From positions 1-25,344 of the IMG/VR virus record IMGVR_UViG_3300006754_000152: a stretch of 25,344 nucleotides of DNA, one strand, 5' to 3'. The translations under genes and the position numbers were made by a program. Origin of the DNA: a virus. Of this stretch, positions 4,605 to 25,344 are shown piece after piece (the stretch's first letter is position 1; each line of letters begins with the position of its first letter). The notes under the pieces are model-generated. The model was not told the origin of the DNA and ran no database searches. It saw only the letters and a program-made list of their open reading frames with translations.

Positions 4605-6179
4605 TTATTCTGACTCAACTATCGCGTGATTTGTTGTAATTAATGTCGAAGAAACTGAAACTGCGTTTTCTAAAGCGGTTCTTGTTACTTTAACTGGATC
4701 AATCACACCTATTTCATATAAATTCTCCATATTGCCAGTCATAAAATTATATCCCCAATCTGGTTGTTGTTCTTGTTTCACATTAAAAACCACAATATCT
4801 GGAGAAAGACCAGCATTCTGTGCCATTTGTCTTAGTGGAGCTTCAATCGATTTCAGAATAATATCTACGCCGACTTCTTGATCACTGTTATCAGCGTCCA
4901 CCTTTAAATCTTTACTGGCACGTATCAGTGCGATGCCGCCTCCGGGTACAACCCCCTCAAGTTGTGCAGAACGTACAGCTTCAATAGCATCCTCAATTCT
5001 GTGCTTTCTCTCAGTCATCTCAACCTCAGTAGTGCCACCAACCCTAACGATCGCAACACCTGAAGCCAAGCGAGTGATTCTATCCTGAATCTTTTCACAT
5101 TCTTCAAGGTCGTCTGTTTGTTCAATTTCTACCTTTAGAGTATCAATTCTTTTTTCAATCTCGTCCCAGTCACCTTGACCTCCAACAAATGTAGTTTCGT
5201 TTTTAAGAGATTCGAATGTTCGAACGCTACCAAGATCAGATAGCTTGGCTTCTGAAACTCTGGTGCCGCTTTCTTTACTGAAGAATGTAGCACCAATAGA
5301 AACAGATAAATCTTTAAGAAAATTTCTTCTCTCCTCTCCATAGGCTGGTGCTTTAACCGCTGCAACCTTCATGGTACCACGCATAGCATTCATGATCAAA
5401 GCTGCAAGAGCTTGGTCCTGAACATTGTCGGCCACAATAATAAAGGGAGAATTAGCACGAGCAACTTGCTCAAGAATGGGGAGGATTTGCTCTACTGTGT
5501 TAATAGATTCGTCTGTGACCATTACAAGAGCATTCTCGTGCCTTACAACATTTCGTCGTTCATCAGTAATAAAAGCAGAAGCAAGATACCCAGAATCAAA
5601 ACGAAAGCCCTCCAGCATTTCAAGGCTTGTCTCTATTGATTTTGCCTCTTCAACGGTAATGGATCCATCTTTTCCAGCCTGATCTACTGCCGTTGCAATC
5701 AACTGGCCAATTTCTCTATCGTTGTTAGCTGAAATGGTGGCCACATGAGCTACATCTTCTTCAGACATAATGGGTCGAGATAGTTCCTCTAAATTATCTT
5801 TAATGGCAACAACAGCCTTATCCATTCCCCTTTTAAGCTCAACAGGTGAACAACCTGCGGCCAAATATCTTTGAGAGTTTGTGATTATTTCTCTAGCGAG
5901 AACTGTTGAAGTTGTTGTTCCGTCACCAGCACTAAAATTAGTTTCAACTGATGCTTGCTTAATTACATAAGCTGCTGCGTTCTCAATTGGATCCTCTAGG
6001 TCTACAAACTTAGCTACAGTAACACCATCTTTTGTAATAATTGGCGTATGACCTTTGGACTTTAACAACACACTTCTTCCTTTTGGACCCAGTGTGGCTG
6101 CTACGTTATCGGTTAATTTATTAACACCACTTAATATTTTTTTATTTAAACCTTCGTGCGAACTGTATAATTTTGTCAC
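4605..6179 (-). CDS. groEL: GroEL-type chaperonin (60 kDa, group I)
   Basis: A 524-aa ATP-dependent protein-folding chaperonin. The ATP-site motifs are intact: TLGPKGRSVLL, TKDGVTVAK and AGDGTTTSTVLA near the N-terminus, and IEDAIEAVRSA followed by GVVPGGGIAL in the second equatorial half (the Asp of IEDA matches the catalytic Asp398 of E. coli GroEL). The apical-domain stretch ANSPFIIVADNVQDQALAAL is present. The protein ends in NHAIVESE and lacks the Gly-Met tail of cellular GroEL. It starts at a GTG just after AGGAGG, and the preceding stop (TAG) is part of that ribosome site. A promoter at 6481-6509 serves the pair. Presumably it folds phage structural proteins; a GroES-like gene lies separately at 18542-18811. 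Confidence 0.97.
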   Translation of the reverse strand: MTKLYSSHEGLNKKILSGVNKLTDNVAATLGPKGRSVLLKSKGHTPIITKDGVTVAKFVDLEDPIENAAAYVIKQASVETNFSAGDGTTTSTVLAREIITNSQRYLAAGCSPVELKRGMDKAVVAIKDNLEELSRPIMSEEDVAHVATISANNDREIGQLIATAVDQAGKDGSITVEEAKSIETSLEMLEGFRFDSGYLASAFITDERRNVVRHENALVMVTDESINTVEQILPILEQVARANSPFIIVADNVQDQALAALIMNAMRGTMKVAAVKAPAYGEERRNFLKDLSVSIGATFFSKESGTRVSEAKLSDLGSVRTFESLKNETTFVGGQGDWDEIEKRIDTLKVEIEQTDDLEECEKIQDRITRLASGVAIVRVGGTTEVEMTERKHRIEDAIEAVRSAQLEGVVPGGGIALIRASKDLKVDADNSDQEVGVDIILKSIEAPLRQMAQNAGLSPDIVVFNVKQEQQPDWGYNFMTGNMENLYEIGVIDPVKVTRTALENAVSVSSTLITTNHAIVESE

Positions 6180-6480: not shown

Positions 6481-6509
6481 AGTATACAAGATTATCACAA
6501 CTATGTCAA
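6481..6509 (-). promoter_or_regulatory. Sigma-70 promoter of the groEL operon
   Basis: The minus strand reads TTGACA, 17 nt, TATACT (-35 at 6504-6509, -10 at 6481-6486), in the gap after the Mom-like gene. The -10 ends 20 nt before the ATG at 6460. The predicted transcript would begin almost at the AAAGGAG ribosome site, so the leader is very short. Confidence 0.85.
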
Positions 6510-7454: not shown

Positions 7455-9343
7455 TCATCGCTCGTGAGTTCATTAATCATCTCACTAAGCATTATATACG
7501 AAAGGCGGGTGTTTGTCAAGTGTTCTTTTTGTTCTCTCTTCTCTTTTCCTGCCATTGATTGCACCGTTTCTTCTACATCCAAACTGTTAACCATTTGGTG
7601 TGTAAGTTTTTTTTCAAGAGTGTCCATAATATTATCAATCTTTTTCTCCAACTCGCCCATGCCGGGGGTGTCTACGGCTTCTGCCATAAACCCTTGTTCT
7701 GCTCTCTTTTCTTGAGCCTTCGCCATTTCCGCTTCAACTTCTTTAAAAGCTCCCTCAATATCTTTTCCTCGAATATCAAATCTATACGAAGGTTTGCATC
7801 CAATCCCGACCAATCGCCCATCTTTAGATATTGCCCTTCCTCCCTTAGACCGCACATCAACTTTAATAATTTTAGCGAAAGTGGCAATAGTTTTTGCATA
7901 CGCAGCCCCATCCTCGGGCATCAATGAAAATATATGATCTGGTGAAACGATATATTGTGCTATAGCTTCAGGTGCTTCAGCAAAAATTCTTCTTCCTGAT
8001 AATATTTCATCAACCAATACATTTCGTAACGACTGAGAGGCAGTCGGACCTTCAGCAGATTCTTTCACAACTTCAGTAAAGATCGCTTTAAGTTTTCTAC
8101 GAATTTCATTTCCAAATTTTTCCTGCCAATCATCATAATCAAAATTTCTTACAATTACTTCTCCTAATTGATTAATGATGCCCTGCTGCTCAAGAGCCTC
8201 AAGTGCGTTTTTATACTTTTCTATCTTTTTAAGGTCAGCTTTTTTACCTTTTGATTTTTCTTTTTCAATATCCGACAGCATATTTGCAGCACGACCATGA
8301 GTTATAAATTGTTTTTCGCCGTGTTCAAGCATTTCTGTTTTAGCTTCAGCAAAAAGTTTGGCTGTTTCTTCTTGTGCCGCTTTAATTGCAGCGTCTTCAA
8401 CACTATCAGCAGCATTTTCTCTTAACCATTCATCGACAATAAATTGTAATTGTGGTGCGGTATTAGCAGCTTCAGCGGAAGCAGCTTGAATATCACCGGA
8501 CAATTTAATCGAGATATTTTTATCCCCAAACCTTATATCTGTTTTGGGTTGAATGGATGGACCGCCCCACGCAGGAGGTTTTTTACCGACTTCTTCCATT
8601 GTTGCACCAGCAAAATTTGCTTTAGAAAAGAAACCGGAATTGACACACAAGGTAATAGATTCATCAGCTAGTTCTCCTATTGTTGAACCTCCGTGTTCCA
8701 TTTGTCTCCAGTCATCGCTACGGGCACAAGCATAAGCAGCATCCCCAGTGCCTGTTGGCGCACCTACTTTCATTCGCGCAGATTCAATAACACACCACTC
8801 AAATCGCATCGCAGCTTTTGGCGGTGGGACTCCCTTACAATCTCCAGCAGTACGAGCACCACCTAATTTTTCAGAACCAGAAGAAATTACTTTGGGTGGT
8901 TGTTTTGCTTTATTTATTGGACCTTCAGCTTTTCCTTTTGCTTCGTCTTCGCCAAAAGTATAAACTGTTTTACCATCTAATTTATGCTGCCACAATAATC
9001 CCTTACCAACTAACTTGTTCCACGCTTCAACAAATGCAACCATTTCAACCTGTTCCGACTTTATCGCCAGAGCAACTTTTCTATCAAAATCTTTTGCTAT
9101 TACCTCTTCGTCCTCACGATCAATAAAATACTTTTTTATTTTACGATAACAATCGCTTGTAGTTATACATGAAAAAAATTCTTCTTGGCTTTCCGATACT
9201 ATTTTATTATCAGAAATATTTTTATGTAAATCTGGAGTTGTATTATTAATTGGCTCCTCAAAAACTACCAAATCATTCTCACTTAATTCTTCTAGTTGCT
9301 CATCAACTAAACTCACAAGTTCAGCCCAATTAATCTTAGACAT
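7451..9343 (-). CDS. Large phage protein of unknown function (630 aa)
   Basis: A 630-aa protein starting at an ATG that overlaps the previous gene by 8 nt. The N-terminus is acidic. Residues about 65-130 look like a small helical or winged domain (YRKIKKYF through KLDGKTVYTF). Residues 265-295 contain PKTDIRFGDKNISIKLSGDIQ written across a strand pair, with D269 and K280 spaced as in some nuclease cores (D...xK). Long Ala/Glu/Lys helices follow (about 300-400). A C-terminal domain has DEILSGRRIFAEAPEAIAQY and GRLVGIGCKPSYRFDIRG. I have seen similar combinations in unannotated T4-like proteins but cannot name it. A virion or nuclease role is speculation. The Mom promoter lies in its 3' end. 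Confidence 0.85.
   Translation of the reverse strand: MSKINWAELVSLVDEQLEELSENDLVVFEEPINNTTPDLHKNISDNKIVSESQEEFFSCITTSDCYRKIKKYFIDREDEEVIAKDFDRKVALAIKSEQVEMVAFVEAWNKLVGKGLLWQHKLDGKTVYTFGEDEAKGKAEGPINKAKQPPKVISSGSEKLGGARTAGDCKGVPPPKAAMRFEWCVIESARMKVGAPTGTGDAAYACARSDDWRQMEHGGSTIGELADESITLCVNSGFFSKANFAGATMEEVGKKPPAWGGPSIQPKTDIRFGDKNISIKLSGDIQAASAEAANTAPQLQFIVDEWLRENAADSVEDAAIKAAQEETAKLFAEAKTEMLEHGEKQFITHGRAANMLSDIEKEKSKGKKADLKKIEKYKNALEALEQQGIINQLGEVIVRNFDYDDWQEKFGNEIRRKLKAIFTEVVKESAEGPTASQSLRNVLVDEILSGRRIFAEAPEAIAQYIVSPDHIFSLMPEDGAAYAKTIATFAKIIKVDVRSKGGRAISKDGRLVGIGCKPSYRFDIRGKDIEGAFKEVEAEMAKAQEKRAEQGFMAEAVDTPGMGELEKKIDNIMDTLEKKLTHQMVNSLDVEETVQSMAGKEKREQKEHLTNTRLSYIMLSEMINELTSDE
7491..7519 (-). 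promoter_or_regulatory. Perfect-consensus internal sigma-70 promoter for the Mom-like gene
   Basis: The minus strand reads TTGACA, 17 nt, TATAAT (-35 at 7514-7519, -10 at 7491-7496). It lies inside the last codons of the 630-aa gene, 36 nt before the ATG at 7454. All 12 consensus positions match. It would let the Mom-like gene be expressed apart from the upstream genes. Confidence 0.8.
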
Positions 9344-11170: not shown

Positions 11171-11737
11171 CTATTTTTTACTTTCTTTTACGAGACGTAA
11201 AGCGACTCGGCGTGCAACTTCTGATACCACACTTTCATAATCAAACTCTTCTGATTCTTCCACAGGCTCTTCTTCCTCTGATTCTTCAACATCACCTTCA
11301 GCAGCTTCCGCCATCTCAGCGGGCTCTGGTTCCATGTCCATTTCAGGCTCTGGTTCCATGTCCATTTCAGGCTCTGGTTCCATGTCCATTTCAGGCTCTG
11401 GTTCCATGTCCATAGCTGGCTCGGCTCCACCTTCGACATCAACAGAAACACCAGTTTCTTGTTCAATGGCATCAGCAACAGCAACGACGATTCGTTGAAC
11501 CATCTCCTCATCTACGTCAGGCTCTGGTTCCATGTCCATAGCTGGCTCTTCACCCATGTCCATAGCTGGCTCTTCACCCATGTCGTCCATACCTACCTCT
11601 GCCTCTTCTTCATCAGCAAATGCATCATCTTCTTCGACGGTATCAAGAAAATTCTCTGCAAGAGGCTCAATATTGGCGTATTTCATAAACTTTCGAATTG
11701 TATTTTCTTCTAAAAGCTTCTTTACTTTTTTACTCAT
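11171..11737 (-). CDS. Acidic octapeptide-repeat phage protein
   Basis: A 188-aa very acidic protein. The start is the ATG at 11737 after AGGAG (9 nt); a TTG one codon earlier is possible. The N-terminus, MSKKVKKLLEENTIRKFMKY then ANIEPLAENFLD, is a conserved-looking leader of a type I associate with marine T4-like phage proteins. It is followed by Asp/Glu-rich sequence with two MGEEPAMD units, a short helical domain (EEMVQRIVVAVADAIEQETG), four EPEPEMDM-type units and a C-terminal amphipathic helix (SEVARRVALRLVKESKK). The overall form recalls phage scaffold or head-core proteins, but the role is inference. It is flanked by its own terminator and by the TATTTATA motif, so it is probably a single-gene transcript. 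Confidence 0.85.
   Translation of the reverse strand: MSKKVKKLLEENTIRKFMKYANIEPLAENFLDTVEEDDAFADEEEAEVGMDDMGEEPAMDMGEEPAMDMEPEPDVDEEMVQRIVVAVADAIEQETGVSVDVEGGAEPAMDMEPEPEMDMEPEPEMDMEPEPEMDMEPEPAEMAEAAEGDVEESEEEEPVEESEEFDYESVVSEVARRVALRLVKESKK
11322..11417. repeat. Four tandem 24-nt coding repeats
   Basis: Units of 24 nt (GGCTCTGGTTCCATGTCCAT plus 4 nt on the plus strand) start at 11322, 11346, 11370 and 11394. The first three are identical and the fourth differs at its end. They encode the octapeptide EPEPEMDM in the acidic-repeat protein. The near-perfect nucleotide identity points to recent slippage or expansion. Confidence 0.95.
11531..11578. repeat. Two tandem 24-nt coding repeats (second type)
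   Basis: CATGTCCATAGCTGGCTCTT plus CACC occurs twice in tandem at 11531-11554 and 11555-11578, encoding MGEEPAMD units. It shares its CCATGTCCAT core with the array at 11322-11417, so both probably arose from the same sequence. Confidence 0.9.
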
Positions 11738-11784
11738 CAATTTATTCTCCTAAAAATTTTGATCAAACCCTAGACAGGTTCATG

Positions 11785-19112: not shown

Positions 19113-19142
19113 AGTATAGCATATATTTTATTAATTTGTCAA
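19113..19142 (-). promoter_or_regulatory. Sigma-70 promoter after nrdJ
   Basis: The minus strand reads TTGACA, 18 nt, TATACT (-35 at 19137-19142, -10 at 19113-19118). It lies in the 71-nt gap after the nrdJ stop, with the -10 ending 33 nt before the ATG at 19079. It should start the 88-aa, GroES-like and following genes. Confidence 0.8.
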
Positions 19143-21007: not shown

Positions 21008-22378
21008 TTAGGTGGCGCTCCCGTTCTTTTTAAATGTTTTATATTTTTCTTTTAATGTCTGAGCCTGTTGCTTTGACGTTTTGGTAACTAATTGTACTGC
21101 TCCGTTTGTTTGTGGCAGTATCTTAATTTTCACATTTTTTGTATCCATAAATATTGGAAATACTAACCCGTCTGGACCATTACGATTCTTCGCGATGAAA
21201 GCTCGACCTTCATTATTTACCTTGTCTTCGATTGTTCTAGAGATTGTAAAAATAAAGTCTGCAACAAAACACTTATTGAAAGCTTCTGAAATAGACTCCA
21301 TAGTAATCACTTCCGCGTTTAATCCTGAACGATTAGTTTGAGAGGCTGTCCAGATTGGGCATTCAAAAATTTGTGCCATTCCTCGCAGCTCTTCGTAAAT
21401 AGATTCTAGTTCGTTTCTTCGCTCCTTTAAATATCTTATTGGTCGCAGCAGATCACCGTAATCAACGATGATCATGTCAATGTTTTCTCCTCGACGTTTG
21501 AGCTTTTCCAAGTGATTCCGAAGCGTTTGAGTTGAGGCAGATTTAGTTGGATACTCTTTAACAATAAGCTTTCCATCTAAATTTTTTATTTGTTCATGTA
21601 CATCTTTTTTACGACCATAGATCTCGTTCAAATCAATACCAGTAATACAACTATCATAACGAGTAGCCACTACGGTTTCCTGTAGTTCTAGCGTATAATG
21701 TACGACTGTTAGACCATCTAATATAGCCTGTGCTCCAAGGTGTACTAGCGCCATAGATTTACCAGCACCTGTGGGGGCGATGACTACACCCAACTCACCT
21801 CGTCCAATACCACCTTTAGTAAGACTATCAAGAATTTTCCACCCAGTTCCTACTGGATTCCGGGCCTTGATCATAAACCTTTCTTCAAAGTCTTTAAGAT
21901 ACTCATACCCAATATTATTATCAACACCAAGCTTCAAAGCATCATTAATAATCTTGCTAATTTCTTCATATGAAGAAGACTGGATGAGTTTGACACTTTT
22001 GATCATAGCCTCTTTGAGCTTCTGCTTCTTGCAGAAATCCAAAGCTACCTCTTTAATGTGGTCCACGCCTTCGACGTTGGTTTCGGAGCTACAAATACGA
22101 GTGAAGTAATCCCTCATCTGCTTCTGAATTAACTCGTCTTCATCGTCAATCTCAGCCCTTAGAATGGTAAGCATGGTATCCCGCGAAGGATGTGAACCAT
22201 ACTTTTCACGATAGCCTTTAATTAGCTGAACAAAGCTCTTGAGGTATTTAAGCTCTAAAAAGCTGGTATCCAAAACTTCAAATATCTGATCTGCAAAAGG
22301 TCGATCATCTAGGATAACCTGAATTAAATTTTCCTGAAATTTCTTTCCGTATTTACTAAAACTTGCTATCTCTGTCAT
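21008..22378 (-). CDS. Replicative DNA helicase, DnaB/gp41 type
   Basis: A 456-aa ring helicase that would unwind DNA ahead of the polymerase. The N-terminal region (residues 1-170) is helical with the polar, acidic character of DnaB-family N-domains. The RecA-like core has Walker A APTGAGKS (201-208), then VVHYTLELQETVVATRYDS (motif 1a region), Walker B IDMIIVDYGDLL, and the Gln/Arg sensor region CPIWTASQTNRSG. The segment ADFIFTISRT follows. It overlaps the exonuclease gene by ATGA and adjoins nrdJ. No separate primase is recognised in the window. Confidence 0.93.
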   Translation of the reverse strand: MTEIASFSKYGKKFQENLIQVILDDRPFADQIFEVLDTSFLELKYLKSFVQLIKGYREKYGSHPSRDTMLTILRAEIDDEDELIQKQMRDYFTRICSSETNVEGVDHIKEVALDFCKKQKLKEAMIKSVKLIQSSSYEEISKIINDALKLGVDNNIGYEYLKDFEERFMIKARNPVGTGWKILDSLTKGGIGRGELGVVIAPTGAGKSMALVHLGAQAILDGLTVVHYTLELQETVVATRYDSCITGIDLNEIYGRKKDVHEQIKNLDGKLIVKEYPTKSASTQTLRNHLEKLKRRGENIDMIIVDYGDLLRPIRYLKERRNELESIYEELRGMAQIFECPIWTASQTNRSGLNAEVITMESISEAFNKCFVADFIFTISRTIEDKVNNEGRAFIAKNRNGPDGLVFPIFMDTKNVKIKILPQTNGAVQLVTKTSKQQAQTLKEKYKTFKKNGSAT

Positions 22379-23364
22379 TTCTTCTCCGTCTTATTTTTGA
22401 TACATATGTCCTTTAACGAACTGAACAAACTAGTCCAGTCGCCAGAACCAAAACCATCTTCAACTGTCATCTTTAAAAATTGAGTTTTATTATATGAATA
22501 ATCAAATTCATCTAAGGTCCATTTAATTTTATTTCTTCCCTGAATCGAGATACTAGGAGTATATAGCTGCATCATTTGATAGTTTGTTGTGACAACATCT
22601 ATTTGGTCCACAATATTCTCATATGCTTTTATACTACTTTCCTGCTCTTTGCAATAGTCAAATACATCTCCAATAGTATATGTCTTTTCCTCTTTCAGAA
22701 AGGGTAGTCTTTTCGCGACCGTTGGTAATCCCACTCGTTCAACACCCTTCAAATTATCCGATTTGTCTCCAGCGATAGCTCTCGCTAAAGCAAAATTAGT
22801 TGGATGAATATTAAATTTTTCAATTACATTATTTTTGTTTAATACTTCTTTTTGAATCGGTCGATATATTATTGTTTCGTCGTCACACAACTGATAAAAA
22901 TCTTTGTCACTCGATACAATTACTTTTTGCCAACCTTTATGTCTCTGGTCATTTACCACAAAAGAAATAATATCGTCTGCTTCAACACCCTCCAGCATCA
23001 ACTGGATAATAGGAGTTTGATTAATATATTCTACGATCCTAGTTTGTTGATAGACCTGATTTTTTAGTTGTGCATTGTTGTCCAACAAATCTATATTACG
23101 ATTTAACCTAAGAGGCTTCCGCCCTTCTTTATATCCTTTGACCATCTGCTTGCGTTTTTGTGAACCTCCTGGTCCATCCCAACAAATAATAACTTTGTCT
23201 GGCTTAGTCTCTCTCAGTAACTTCTGGAGTATTTTAAAGTAGCCTTTAAGACCACCGATGGGTTCGCCATTCTCCGATACGCTAGGATCCACAATGTATG
23301 CTCGAAAAAACATATTTAAGGAATCTACGATTAATAATCTTTTTGGTGTGTCCTCCAGCTTCAT
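22375..23364 (-). CDS. 5'-3' exonuclease, FEN/T4 RNase H type
   Basis: A 329-aa metal-dependent nuclease that removes RNA primers and 5' flaps. Visible family motifs are LLIVDSLNMFFRAYI near the N-terminus (D14), VIICWDGPGGSQKRK with KGYKEGRKP (the arch and second acid), EGVEADDIISFVV, KVIVSSDKDFYQL and the helix-hairpin-helix region AIAGDKSDNLKGVERVGLPT. All the main acidic ligands appear present. Its ATG follows a GGAGAG site. Its promoter at 23398-23426 is interlaced with the recA terminator, and its stop overlaps the helicase start. Confidence 0.92.
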   Translation of the reverse strand: MKLEDTPKRLLIVDSLNMFFRAYIVDPSVSENGEPIGGLKGYFKILQKLLRETKPDKVIICWDGPGGSQKRKQMVKGYKEGRKPLRLNRNIDLLDNNAQLKNQVYQQTRIVEYINQTPIIQLMLEGVEADDIISFVVNDQRHKGWQKVIVSSDKDFYQLCDDETIIYRPIQKEVLNKNNVIEKFNIHPTNFALARAIAGDKSDNLKGVERVGLPTVAKRLPFLKEEKTYTIGDVFDYCKEQESSIKAYENIVDQIDVVTTNYQMMQLYTPSISIQGRNKIKWTLDEFDYSYNKTQFLKMTVEDGFGSGDWTSLFSSLKDICIKNKTEKK

Positions 23365-23378
23365 ATTTCTCTCCTATT

Positions 23379-23415
23379 AAAAAACCCCAAGTGCTTTATT
23401 GTAAAACACTTGGGG
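23379..23415 (-). terminator. Rho-independent terminator of recA
   Basis: In the minus direction CCCCAAGTG ... CACTTGGGG forms a 9-bp perfect stem (extended by three A-T pairs past one mismatch), followed by six T. It starts 28 nt after the recA stop and should end that transcript. The next gene's -10 element lies in its loop. Confidence 0.92.
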
Positions 23416-23426
23416 CTTCTTGTCAA
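23398..23426 (-). promoter_or_regulatory. Sigma-70 promoter overlapping the recA terminator
   Basis: The minus strand reads TTGACA, 17 nt, TACAAT (-35 at 23421-23426, -10 at 23398-23403), ahead of the exonuclease ATG at 23364. The -35 is just before the hairpin, the spacer is its 5' arm and the -10 falls in the loop. A transcript from it would start in the 3' arm and so cannot fold the terminator. Confidence 0.8.
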
Positions 23427-23443
23427 CACACAAACGCGCTGTA

Positions 23444-24613
23444 TTAAGCTTTTACTTTTTCTTCTTGATCATCTGCTAAGTCTAGCGCGTTACCATTTGG
23501 AAGTTCTTCATCCACATTATAATAAGTTGAAGCTTCACCGCTTCTGCTATCGAATTTTAAAATTACTTCTTCATCCATTAGTTCCATAATTCTATTTTTA
23601 AATTTCTCATCTTGCAGCATCTCGGTCCATTTGCTGGCCTGAAATTTCTGCGATGAACCATCTTTATATTTTAAAGTATACCATGCGCCGCCAGAGGAAA
23701 TACTTTCGGAACTTTTTATAGCCTCAAGCCAACTTTCTTCATCCTGAACACCAATGTTTTCGCCCCACAATATTTTAAATGCACACAAACGACCCTGTGT
23801 ACCAAAGCGTGACTTTTCTAATTTGACTTTTACTTCTGAGCCAATCCGATAACCTTTATCATCTAACACAAAAGATGCCTTTGCCTTACGACCAGTGAGC
23901 CAGATACGCAAACTATAAGAATAGTTTAGTGCCTTGCCACCTGGAGTAAAATATGGAGTTGTGAGAGCCTCTGCAATATTAGACGTAATATTTGTTTTTA
24001 GTTGGTTCAAACACAACAGTGTTGAATTTGAGTTAGCGATCGGCAGAACAAGCTTTGCCAAACCTTTTGATAGAATCCTGGGTTTAACTGCCATTGAAGA
24101 CTGTGGGTTAAAGTCACCCTCAATATCTGCCTTACTTGGAGTTAGTGCTACCGAATCCCAAACGAATAGCATTTTATTTTCATTGGCACCCAATAGTTCT
24201 TCAATTGTTTCCAACACAAACTCGACACTACTCGCCTGTACATATAGAATCTTGTCTACGTCACACCCGCAATTGGCCAAAAACGTAGGATCAATTGCTG
24301 ATTCAGAATCAAAGTAAACAACATCAATTCCCATCTTTTGAGCGTTGGCTGCCACCTGTGCTGCCATATATGATTTACCTGTGGACTCCAGTCCAGCAAT
24401 TTCTGAGACTTTGCCAACCGGGATACCAGCTAGTTTCCCCCTACAAACAATTGAGTCTAGCCATCTAGAGCCGGTGGGAATCCATTCATCGACTTGTGTA
24501 GGATTTTTATCGTTAAGTGAAAATGCGACATTGCTACCAGCCTTTTTATTAATAAGCTTTCGCATATCAGCAATTGAGACTTTACCTGCTTTATTGTCTT
24601 TCGACTTGCTCAC
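23444..24613 (-). CDS. recA: RecA/UvsX-like recombinase
   Basis: A 389-aa ATP-dependent strand-exchange protein. I choose the GTG at 24613, which has GGAG 6 nt upstream; a TTG four codons earlier overlaps that site. Walker A is GLESTGKS (residues 74-81), the DNA/ATP-region glutamate is in VVYFDSESAIDP, and Walker B is MLFVWDS (148-154). SKGLAKLVLPIANSNSTLLC and NQLKTNI match the L2-like region and the Gln switch (N/Q of NQLK). The C-terminal tail is acidic. It stands between the SSB gene and the exonuclease, as a recombination gene would, and ends in its own terminator. Confidence 0.95.
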   Translation of the reverse strand: MSKSKDNKAGKVSIADMRKLINKKAGSNVAFSLNDKNPTQVDEWIPTGSRWLDSIVCRGKLAGIPVGKVSEIAGLESTGKSYMAAQVAANAQKMGIDVVYFDSESAIDPTFLANCGCDVDKILYVQASSVEFVLETIEELLGANENKMLFVWDSVALTPSKADIEGDFNPQSSMAVKPRILSKGLAKLVLPIANSNSTLLCLNQLKTNITSNIAEALTTPYFTPGGKALNYSYSLRIWLTGRKAKASFVLDDKGYRIGSEVKVKLEKSRFGTQGRLCAFKILWGENIGVQDEESWLEAIKSSESISSGGAWYTLKYKDGSSQKFQASKWTEMLQDEKFKNRIMELMDEEVILKFDSRSGEASTYYNVDEELPNGNALDLADDQEEKVKA

Positions 24614-24635
24614 TGTATTCTCCAATCGTAGTAAT

Positions 24636-24672: not shown

Positions 24673-25344
24673 TTACTGTGTCAAATCAGCGAATGCTTCT
24701 TCAACGCTGGAAGTAGCTTTTGATTTGGCTGCTTCATTGTATTTAACAGACTCGCTGGAACGGTCCTCGGCTGATTCATCATCCGAAAAATATTCGTCCA
24801 ACTTCTTCTGCACGTCGGCAGTTGCCTGACGCTCAAACAAAGTATCAATGTCTGGCAAGGTATCTAGAAGTTTCTTACACTCTTCCGTAGAAATGTCTGG
24901 ACAGATTTTAGAAACCTTACGAGCAGGCATAATATCAGTCTGTGGGTACTGAGCACCGGCTGGCTTGCCATAACGAATGTTAAGGTCAGTACCTGCATCG
25001 GGATCAGTGATATCACCGTAATCAGGATTCAGAACTAACTGGAGAAGAGACTCGTAAGCCTTCTTTCCATAGCCCCAGATACGAATACCTTCTTTTTCCT
25101 CACCTCGAACCAAAACAGGAGAGAAGAAACGTTGTTTCGCACCCATGTCACGAGCGAGCTTCTTGCTCTCCTCGTCACCCTTGTTCGCTTCTTTCCAAAG
25201 CGAATCTACAAAGCTACAAACTGGGCAGTCATCACCGAAGTTTTTCTTCGGACACATAAAGCCAGCATTGTTGCCAACGTTGTAGTGGAACCAATGTTCC
25301 TTAAAGGGATCGCCATCGGGCGTAGGTACAATACGAATCGTTTG
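24673..25344 (-). CDS. Single-stranded DNA-binding protein, gp32-like (N-terminus cut)
   Basis: A 223-codon open frame that continues past the right edge; the start is outside the window. Near the cut it reads QTIRIVPTPDGDPFKEHWF then HYNVGNNAGFMCPKKNFGDD and CPVC. This His-...-Cys-x8-Cys-x2-Cys arrangement resembles the zinc site of T4 gp32, and the following part (FFSPVLVRGEEKEGIRIWGY, then LNPDYGDITDPDAGTDLNI) resembles the gp32 core. The C-terminal 60 residues are acidic and Ser-rich, as is usual for SSB tails that bind partners. It coats single strands in replication and recombination and is next to recA. The window-internal ATG at 25257 (MCPKKN) is not the start, because it would split the zinc site. 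Confidence 0.88.
   Translation of the reverse strand, partial: QTIRIVPTPDGDPFKEHWFHYNVGNNAGFMCPKKNFGDDCPVCSFVDSLWKEANKGDEESKKLARDMGAKQRFFSPVLVRGEEKEGIRIWGYGKKAYESLLQLVLNPDYGDITDPDAGTDLNIRYGKPAGAQYPQTDIMPARKVSKICPDISTEECKKLLDTLPDIDTLFERQATADVQKKLDEYFSDDESAEDRSSESVKYNEAAKSKATSSVEEAFADLTQ

Follow-up and report, generated by a model that had tools for sequence, protein, structure and literature searches.

The promoter early stem-loops (PeSLs) of T4-like phages (RB49, phi1 and others), to which the work of Arbiol et al. 2010 and Comeau et al. 2014 is devoted, are reportedly sigma70-like promoters with stem-loops, and these stem-loops are said to terminate transcription and to mediate gene shuffling. 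The PeSL work is cited in PMC4503421 and PMC5931544, and promoter and inverted-repeat motifs in a haloarchaeal virus have been likened to PeSLs (PMC3950731). In T4, the stretch that encodes the 5' strand of the leader hairpin of genes e, soc, 49 and I-TevI also contains a promoter; RNA starting there escapes, and RNA from upstream is shut off (PMC3014915). Our literature search for promoters inside terminators gave nothing direct, and no layout of this kind appears in the passages found on LUZ100, CKA15, 515A1 and LIMEstone.

Using the same scanner as for the relatives of the locus reported here, we found in RB49 21 sites of loop type (-10 in the hairpin loop) against a control mean of 2.4, and 13 of spacer type (whole hairpin in the spacer) against a control mean of 0.9. 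The RB49 sites 3201 and 112374 (minus) have T-rich tracts after the hairpin and match the present layout closely. T4 gave 11 loop-type sites against 2.0 in the control, including early-type promoters with a Shine-Dalgarno (SD) sequence in the 3' arm. Several promoters of early type in the T4 record (AF158101; L340-L347), such as TTTACA-17-TATAGT, place the -10 in a hairpin loop, and some of the 3' arms contain the SD. A promoter-in-terminator design is already known in kind from T4-like phages, and the preliminary description of the present locus, which knew of no common description of this exact layout in phages, is not borne out in that respect, since T4-like PeSLs have been described and the -10-in-loop topology is present in RB49.

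The locus lies in an IMG/VR virus record of 25,344 bases (IMGVR_UViG_3300006754_000152), the whole of which is referred to as the window. All genes near the element are on the minus strand and include, besides those in Table 1, genes for a DnaB-like helicase and a ribonucleotide reductase; a DnaE-type polymerase is encoded further along, and no structural gene was identified within the window. There was no DNA match to the window among 50,697 cultured phage records, and RecA and the polymerase matched cultured phages at <60% identity only, hence the family has no close cultured relative in that collection. The Rfam families searched across the window gave no match. The relatives are uncultivated contigs of up to 204 kb, mostly marine as judged from collection and content. 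As the T4-type capsid protein Gp23 was found in all four near-complete relatives (E about 1e-58 to 1e-62), the group may belong, by its capsid, to the broad T4-like lineage, though its polymerase is of DnaE type. The window further encodes a GroEL/Cpn60 chaperonin of 524 aa (4605-6179, minus; PF00118, E 9.3e-66) and a highly acidic protein with repeated PEPEMDMEPE units (11171-11740, minus).

On the minus strand, from 23426 to 23379, the sequence TTGACA-N17-TACAAT is interlaced with a 20-bp hairpin and a T6 tract, and the coordinates 23379-23426 earlier given for an interlaced promoter and terminator proved exact. The minimum free energy (MFE) of the hairpin is -26.7 kcal/mol, whereas 200 shuffles average -9.2 and none of them reaches it (z = -7.0). 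The promoter boxes agree with sigma70 at 11 of 12 positions, with a 17-nt spacer inside the 16-18 nt range of sigma70 promoters, and the GC-rich stem followed by a U-tract is that of an intrinsic terminator. The -10 had been placed in the loop, which is true only of its CAA, the sole part unpaired in the MFE structure; the first two bases and the last T are paired in the stem, so the -10 forms the apex and not a wholly open loop.

Table 1. Positions of the composite element and its neighbouring genes in the window.
Feature	Position	Strand	Basis or remark
SSB-like gene	24673-25257	minus	
RecA/UvsX-like recombinase gene, upstream of element	23444..24625	minus	PF00154, E 1.6e-38; phrog_97
-35 hexamer TTGACA	23421..23426	minus	begins 18 nt past recA stop codon; TTGAC in 20/20 divergent homologous elements
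17-nt spacer, includes most of hairpin 5' arm	23404..23420	minus	spacing 17 in 19/20 elements
Hairpin 5' arm AAGCCCCAAGTGTTTTA	23402..23418	minus	fold prediction
-10 hexamer TACAAT, hairpin apex	23398..23403	minus	sequence match and fold prediction
Predicted transcription start, within 3' arm	23391..23392	minus	geometry only: 6-7 nt past -10
Hairpin 3' arm TAAAGCACTTGGGGTTT	23382..23398	minus	fold prediction
T6 tract, predicted intrinsic termination site	23379..23384	minus	sequence
SD sequence AGGAG of exonuclease gene, outside hairpin	23371..23375	minus	sequence
5'-3' exonuclease gene, predicted promoter target	22375..23364	minus	PF02739, E 3.2e-32; phrog_107

Between positions 6000 and 25344 there are four promoter matches of at least 11/12, the element included, and the element is the single composite of interlaced type in the window. 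The three other near-consensus sigma70 promoters (11-12/12; 7491-7519, 6481-6509 and 19113-19142, minus) are without an interlaced hairpin.

We consider it likely that the element is a composite promoter-terminator working in the manner of a PeSL. From its sequence and conservation, ssb-recA read-through RNA, which contains both arms, would fold the hairpin beside the U-tract and be released at about 23384-23379. Host polymerase carrying the main sigma factor would bind TTGACA-17-TACAAT in duplex DNA and start at about 23392-23391; the new RNA would begin in the 3' arm and, by fold prediction, be unable to form the hairpin and so pass the U-tract. The predicted promoter-derived leader is without notable structure (z = -0.5) and would leave AGGAG exposed and free for translation of the exonuclease. 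The net effect would be to end the ssb-recA message and to start an exonuclease-helicase-reductase unit anew, with dose and timing settable separately. Termination, initiation and escape are all inferred here from sequence. The fixed 17-nt spacing implies recognition of linear duplex, and we rejected a cruciform or N4-like hairpin promoter.

A polymerase coming from recA would cross the -35, the -10 and the start before reaching the U-tract, and could clear a bound polymerase. The earlier designation of the element as an insulator hence seems apt for the RNA, whose read-through is predicted to be blocked, but not for the promoter DNA, where occlusion by polymerases crossing the whole promoter is not prevented. 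It might also be that the polymerase releasing the recA RNA at the U-tract stays on the DNA beside or over the promoter, rebinds sigma and restarts in place, and that the overlap was selected for this coupling; transcription on the two sides of the junction would then be coupled although their RNAs are separate. Polymerase that has undergone intrinsic termination in vitro often remains on the DNA and initiates again at promoters close by (PMC6978380; also PMC6978322, PMC7957599), and re-initiation is expected by the authors to depend on the distance between terminator and promoter (PMC6978380), which at the element is about 0. The sequence is compatible with either occlusion or such a restart and cannot tell the two apart; selection for the restart appears to us rather unlikely. 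The element offers a compact natural part for asking whether zero terminator-promoter distance favours re-initiation by the same polymerase.

To follow the composite promoter-terminator through the relatives we used the intervals that separate the recA stop and the exonuclease start, grouped at 92% RecA identity into 59 clusters. An automatic scan found a composite in the interval of 24 of the 59 clusters and detected none in the other 35; it missed some elements with an SD in the 3' arm (see below) at the interval edge, and L095 was confirmed separately. The nearest relatives (L002, L003 and L004; 84-87% RecA identity) have TTGACA-17-TATAAT or TATCAT with the same CCCCAAGTG stem. A promoter-blind hairpin search in the recA-exo intervals gave 43 strong gene-strand hairpins, 26 of them with a -10 in the loop and a -35 at 16-18 nt. 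Among the terminator-like gene-strand hairpins, 17 of 20 hold the promoter, against 0 of 49 hairpins on the opposite strand. The control with 179 permuted -35 hexamers had a mean of 0.91, and its few high values were register shifts of the same sites.

Hairpins kept without the promoter in homologous phages had been named in the preliminary description as evidence against interlacing. The promoter is retained in the 17 mentioned, though three terminator-like hairpins are exceptions; in one of these, L097, the hairpin, the T-tract and a TATACT at 17 nt are kept and the -35 is degenerate. In the recA-exonuclease gap of Microcystis phage Mel-JY01 a hairpin and TTTT are present and a -35 is not evident. 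Mel-JY01 (L288, 225-292) is a cultured cyanophage with the same recA-exonuclease order, and its RecA is only ~33% identical.

Covariation was studied in 20 elements less than ~80% alike to each other. TTGAC is invariant in all 20, the sixth -35 base being A or T, the spacing is 17 nt in 19 elements and 16 nt in one, and the -10 is TAnnnT throughout. Positions 10-15 of the spacer and stem, on the other hand, show 4-6 kinds of standard pair each, with nearly every cell paired, the stems changing in sequence by compensatory substitution; the stem covariation thereby separates the promoter constraint from the hairpin constraint. These results bear on a simpler explanation, namely a plain terminator after recA whose inner promoter is a coincidence of an AT-rich genome. 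Weak promoter matches are indeed common, with 71 promoter-like matches in the window against 58 expected. Coincidence would, however, hardly place a promoter at the same position in 17 of 20 terminator-like hairpins of homologous intervals, nor hold TTGAC and the spacing constant while the stems diverge. We regard this explanation as extremely unlikely; on the comparative evidence the overlap of promoter and hairpin is not chance.

The non-Watson-Crick stem positions of the 20 elements comprise 23 G-U, 3 A-C and 3 others. Since G-U far exceeds A-C, a bias that a DNA palindrome would not show, the pattern points to selection on the transcribed RNA, the hairpin being kept as gene-strand RNA. The same asymmetry speaks against the palindrome being a DNA operator for a repressor or activator covering the -10, with no RNA hairpin. 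A palindrome that covers a -10 region is a typical operator site, so the position would suit one, but the stem sequence is not conserved and the U-tract lies on the 3' side; we find an operator hardly credible. Of the 20 elements, 15 have the predicted start within the 3' arm and 5 in the loop just before it, so that promoter-derived RNA is predicted never to carry the 5' arm. Conservation thus lends support to what had been proposed of the composite element, that its hairpin acts as RNA, ends as an intrinsic terminator and is escaped by promoter RNA without the 5' arm.

The element occurs in three variants: (a) the U-tract form of the window; (b) a form with a minimal U-tract or none, whose 3' arm places GGAGG immediately ahead of the start codon, as in CCTCCAGCCCGTTATATTATGGGCTGGAGGTAATCTATG of L099-L105 and others; and (c) an unpacked form, seen at the recA-exo junction of L032, in which the terminator precedes the promoter. 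Form (b), with the same promoter geometry, was seen in L087, L088, L095, L099-L105, L121 and L129 as well as L091, L141 and L152. It seems to constitute a new sister class whose 3' arm is predicted to hide the SD, and read-through RNA would be silenced at translation. In the T4 genes e, soc, 49 and I-TevI, as proposed for the window, promoter-started RNA without the 5' arm escapes the hairpin; those genes differ in acting on translation by hiding the SD and in using T4 late promoters. An SD within the hairpin, as in T4 gene e, is absent from the window element and present in the sister class, which follows the logic of the gene e group with a sigma70-type promoter instead.

One may therefore ask if the window hairpin, too, serves mainly translation or stability, the read-through RNA being silenced or protected and not terminated. 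The T4 genes named above act in this way (PMC3014915), and sister-class members such as L087, L095 and L121 have the same geometry with GGAGG just before the start codon and without a long U-tract. In the window, however, the hairpin does not include the SD and the stem leads into a T6, which makes such a function quite improbable there. We suggest that the terminating U-tract class and the hidden-SD class are two solutions, in one geometry, to the same problem.

In the window and in some relatives the exonuclease gene comes after the element, many relatives have a gene for a dCMP/cytidine deaminase (PF00383) in that place and L107 has another gene, and in some lineages the element is found right before the exonuclease, 300 to 2500 bases past recA. 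With downstream gene and position varying in this way, the element belongs to the junction and not to one gene, and the earlier view of it as an exonuclease-specific device is not supported. Insertion of the PF00383 deaminase gene into the recA-exo interval, immediately following the element, is frequent (e.g. L005, L010, L015, L112 and L138); the gene is not there in the window. That the genes in this interval vary does no more than hint at PeSL-like recombination and shuffling. A stronger version gives the element mainly the part in gene shuffling that has been proposed for PeSLs, as a site of recombination, with transcription secondary; it could draw on the recA-exo distance of ~0 to 2.8 kb among relatives and on the place of the element, which may precede, follow or separate the inserted genes. 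But a single strong recA-linked copy is present in three of the four near-complete genomes, and the stems of different lineages have diverged too far for them to act as homology arms; we hold this version to be very improbable.

Returning to the composite promoter-terminator, its likeness to PeSLs is that a sigma70-like promoter shares bases with a stem-loop, in the window as in RB49; the near-complete relatives carry the T4-type Gp23. It differs in number and setting: PeSLs occur as many similar copies in variable regions, whereas the window relatives have about one strong copy at a conserved locus. There is one composite in the window and one strong recA-linked copy in each of G001, G002 and G005, compared with 21 and 13 sites in RB49; in G003, also near-complete, there was no composite at the recA region and the loop-type count was near background. 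Further, the window-type stem is long and GC-rich, with a canonical U-tract, and diverged between lineages, the phages are of DnaE type, and the spacer type, also present in RB49, is rare among the window relatives. Because of the copy number we term the element a PeSL-like variant and not a PeSL cassette. What is new is an apparently single copy, deeply conserved at recA-exo, in marine phages that combine a DnaE-type polymerase with a T4-type capsid. The composite design known from T4-like coliphages is kept by selection at one junction, from recA to the exonuclease or an inserted deaminase, in uncultivated marine phages that are highly divergent.

A looser scanner brought out in G005 two composites of spacer type and another two loop-type candidates in front of start codons, so the promoter style is not wholly confined to recA. 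The spacer-type composites (51584 and 55271, plus), with the whole hairpin between -35 and -10, also stand before start codons and resemble the RB49 spacer type. A genome-wide role found no support, the near-complete relatives holding about one strong copy.

A strict scanner for the interlaced terminator found none in T5, lambda, N4, rV5, HTVC008M, Mosig, D260 and 100 kb of P-SSM2; the sole T5 match, in the terminal repeat, was an in-hairpin promoter-like match without a T-tract. T5 (AY543070, e.g. P10a 27162-27251) is similar in terminating and then re-initiating within ~100 bp, with overlapping annotated terminator and promoter ends; it differs in that the hairpin is complete upstream of the promoter and the -10 is not in the loop, an unpacked layout like that of L032.

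We scanned 2.9 million viral contigs for the pattern of a -35, GCCYC...GRGGC and a T5 tract (-10 not required) and obtained 59 matches, 17 with the -10 rightly placed. These include more recA-linked relatives, a group around L208 sharing short DNA stretches with T5-like phages, and L210/L233. The permuted-hexamer control scan gave 22 matches and is not a clean null, because real, register-shifted cases (TTGACT) turned up in it, among them another family with TTGACT-17-TATAAT in a GCCTCTGACAG...CTACAGAGGC hairpin (L256 and others). This separate TTGACT-17-TATAAT phage group (L256, L257, L262, L263, L268-L270 and L275) has its terminator hairpin downstream of a cell-wall-hydrolase-like gene.
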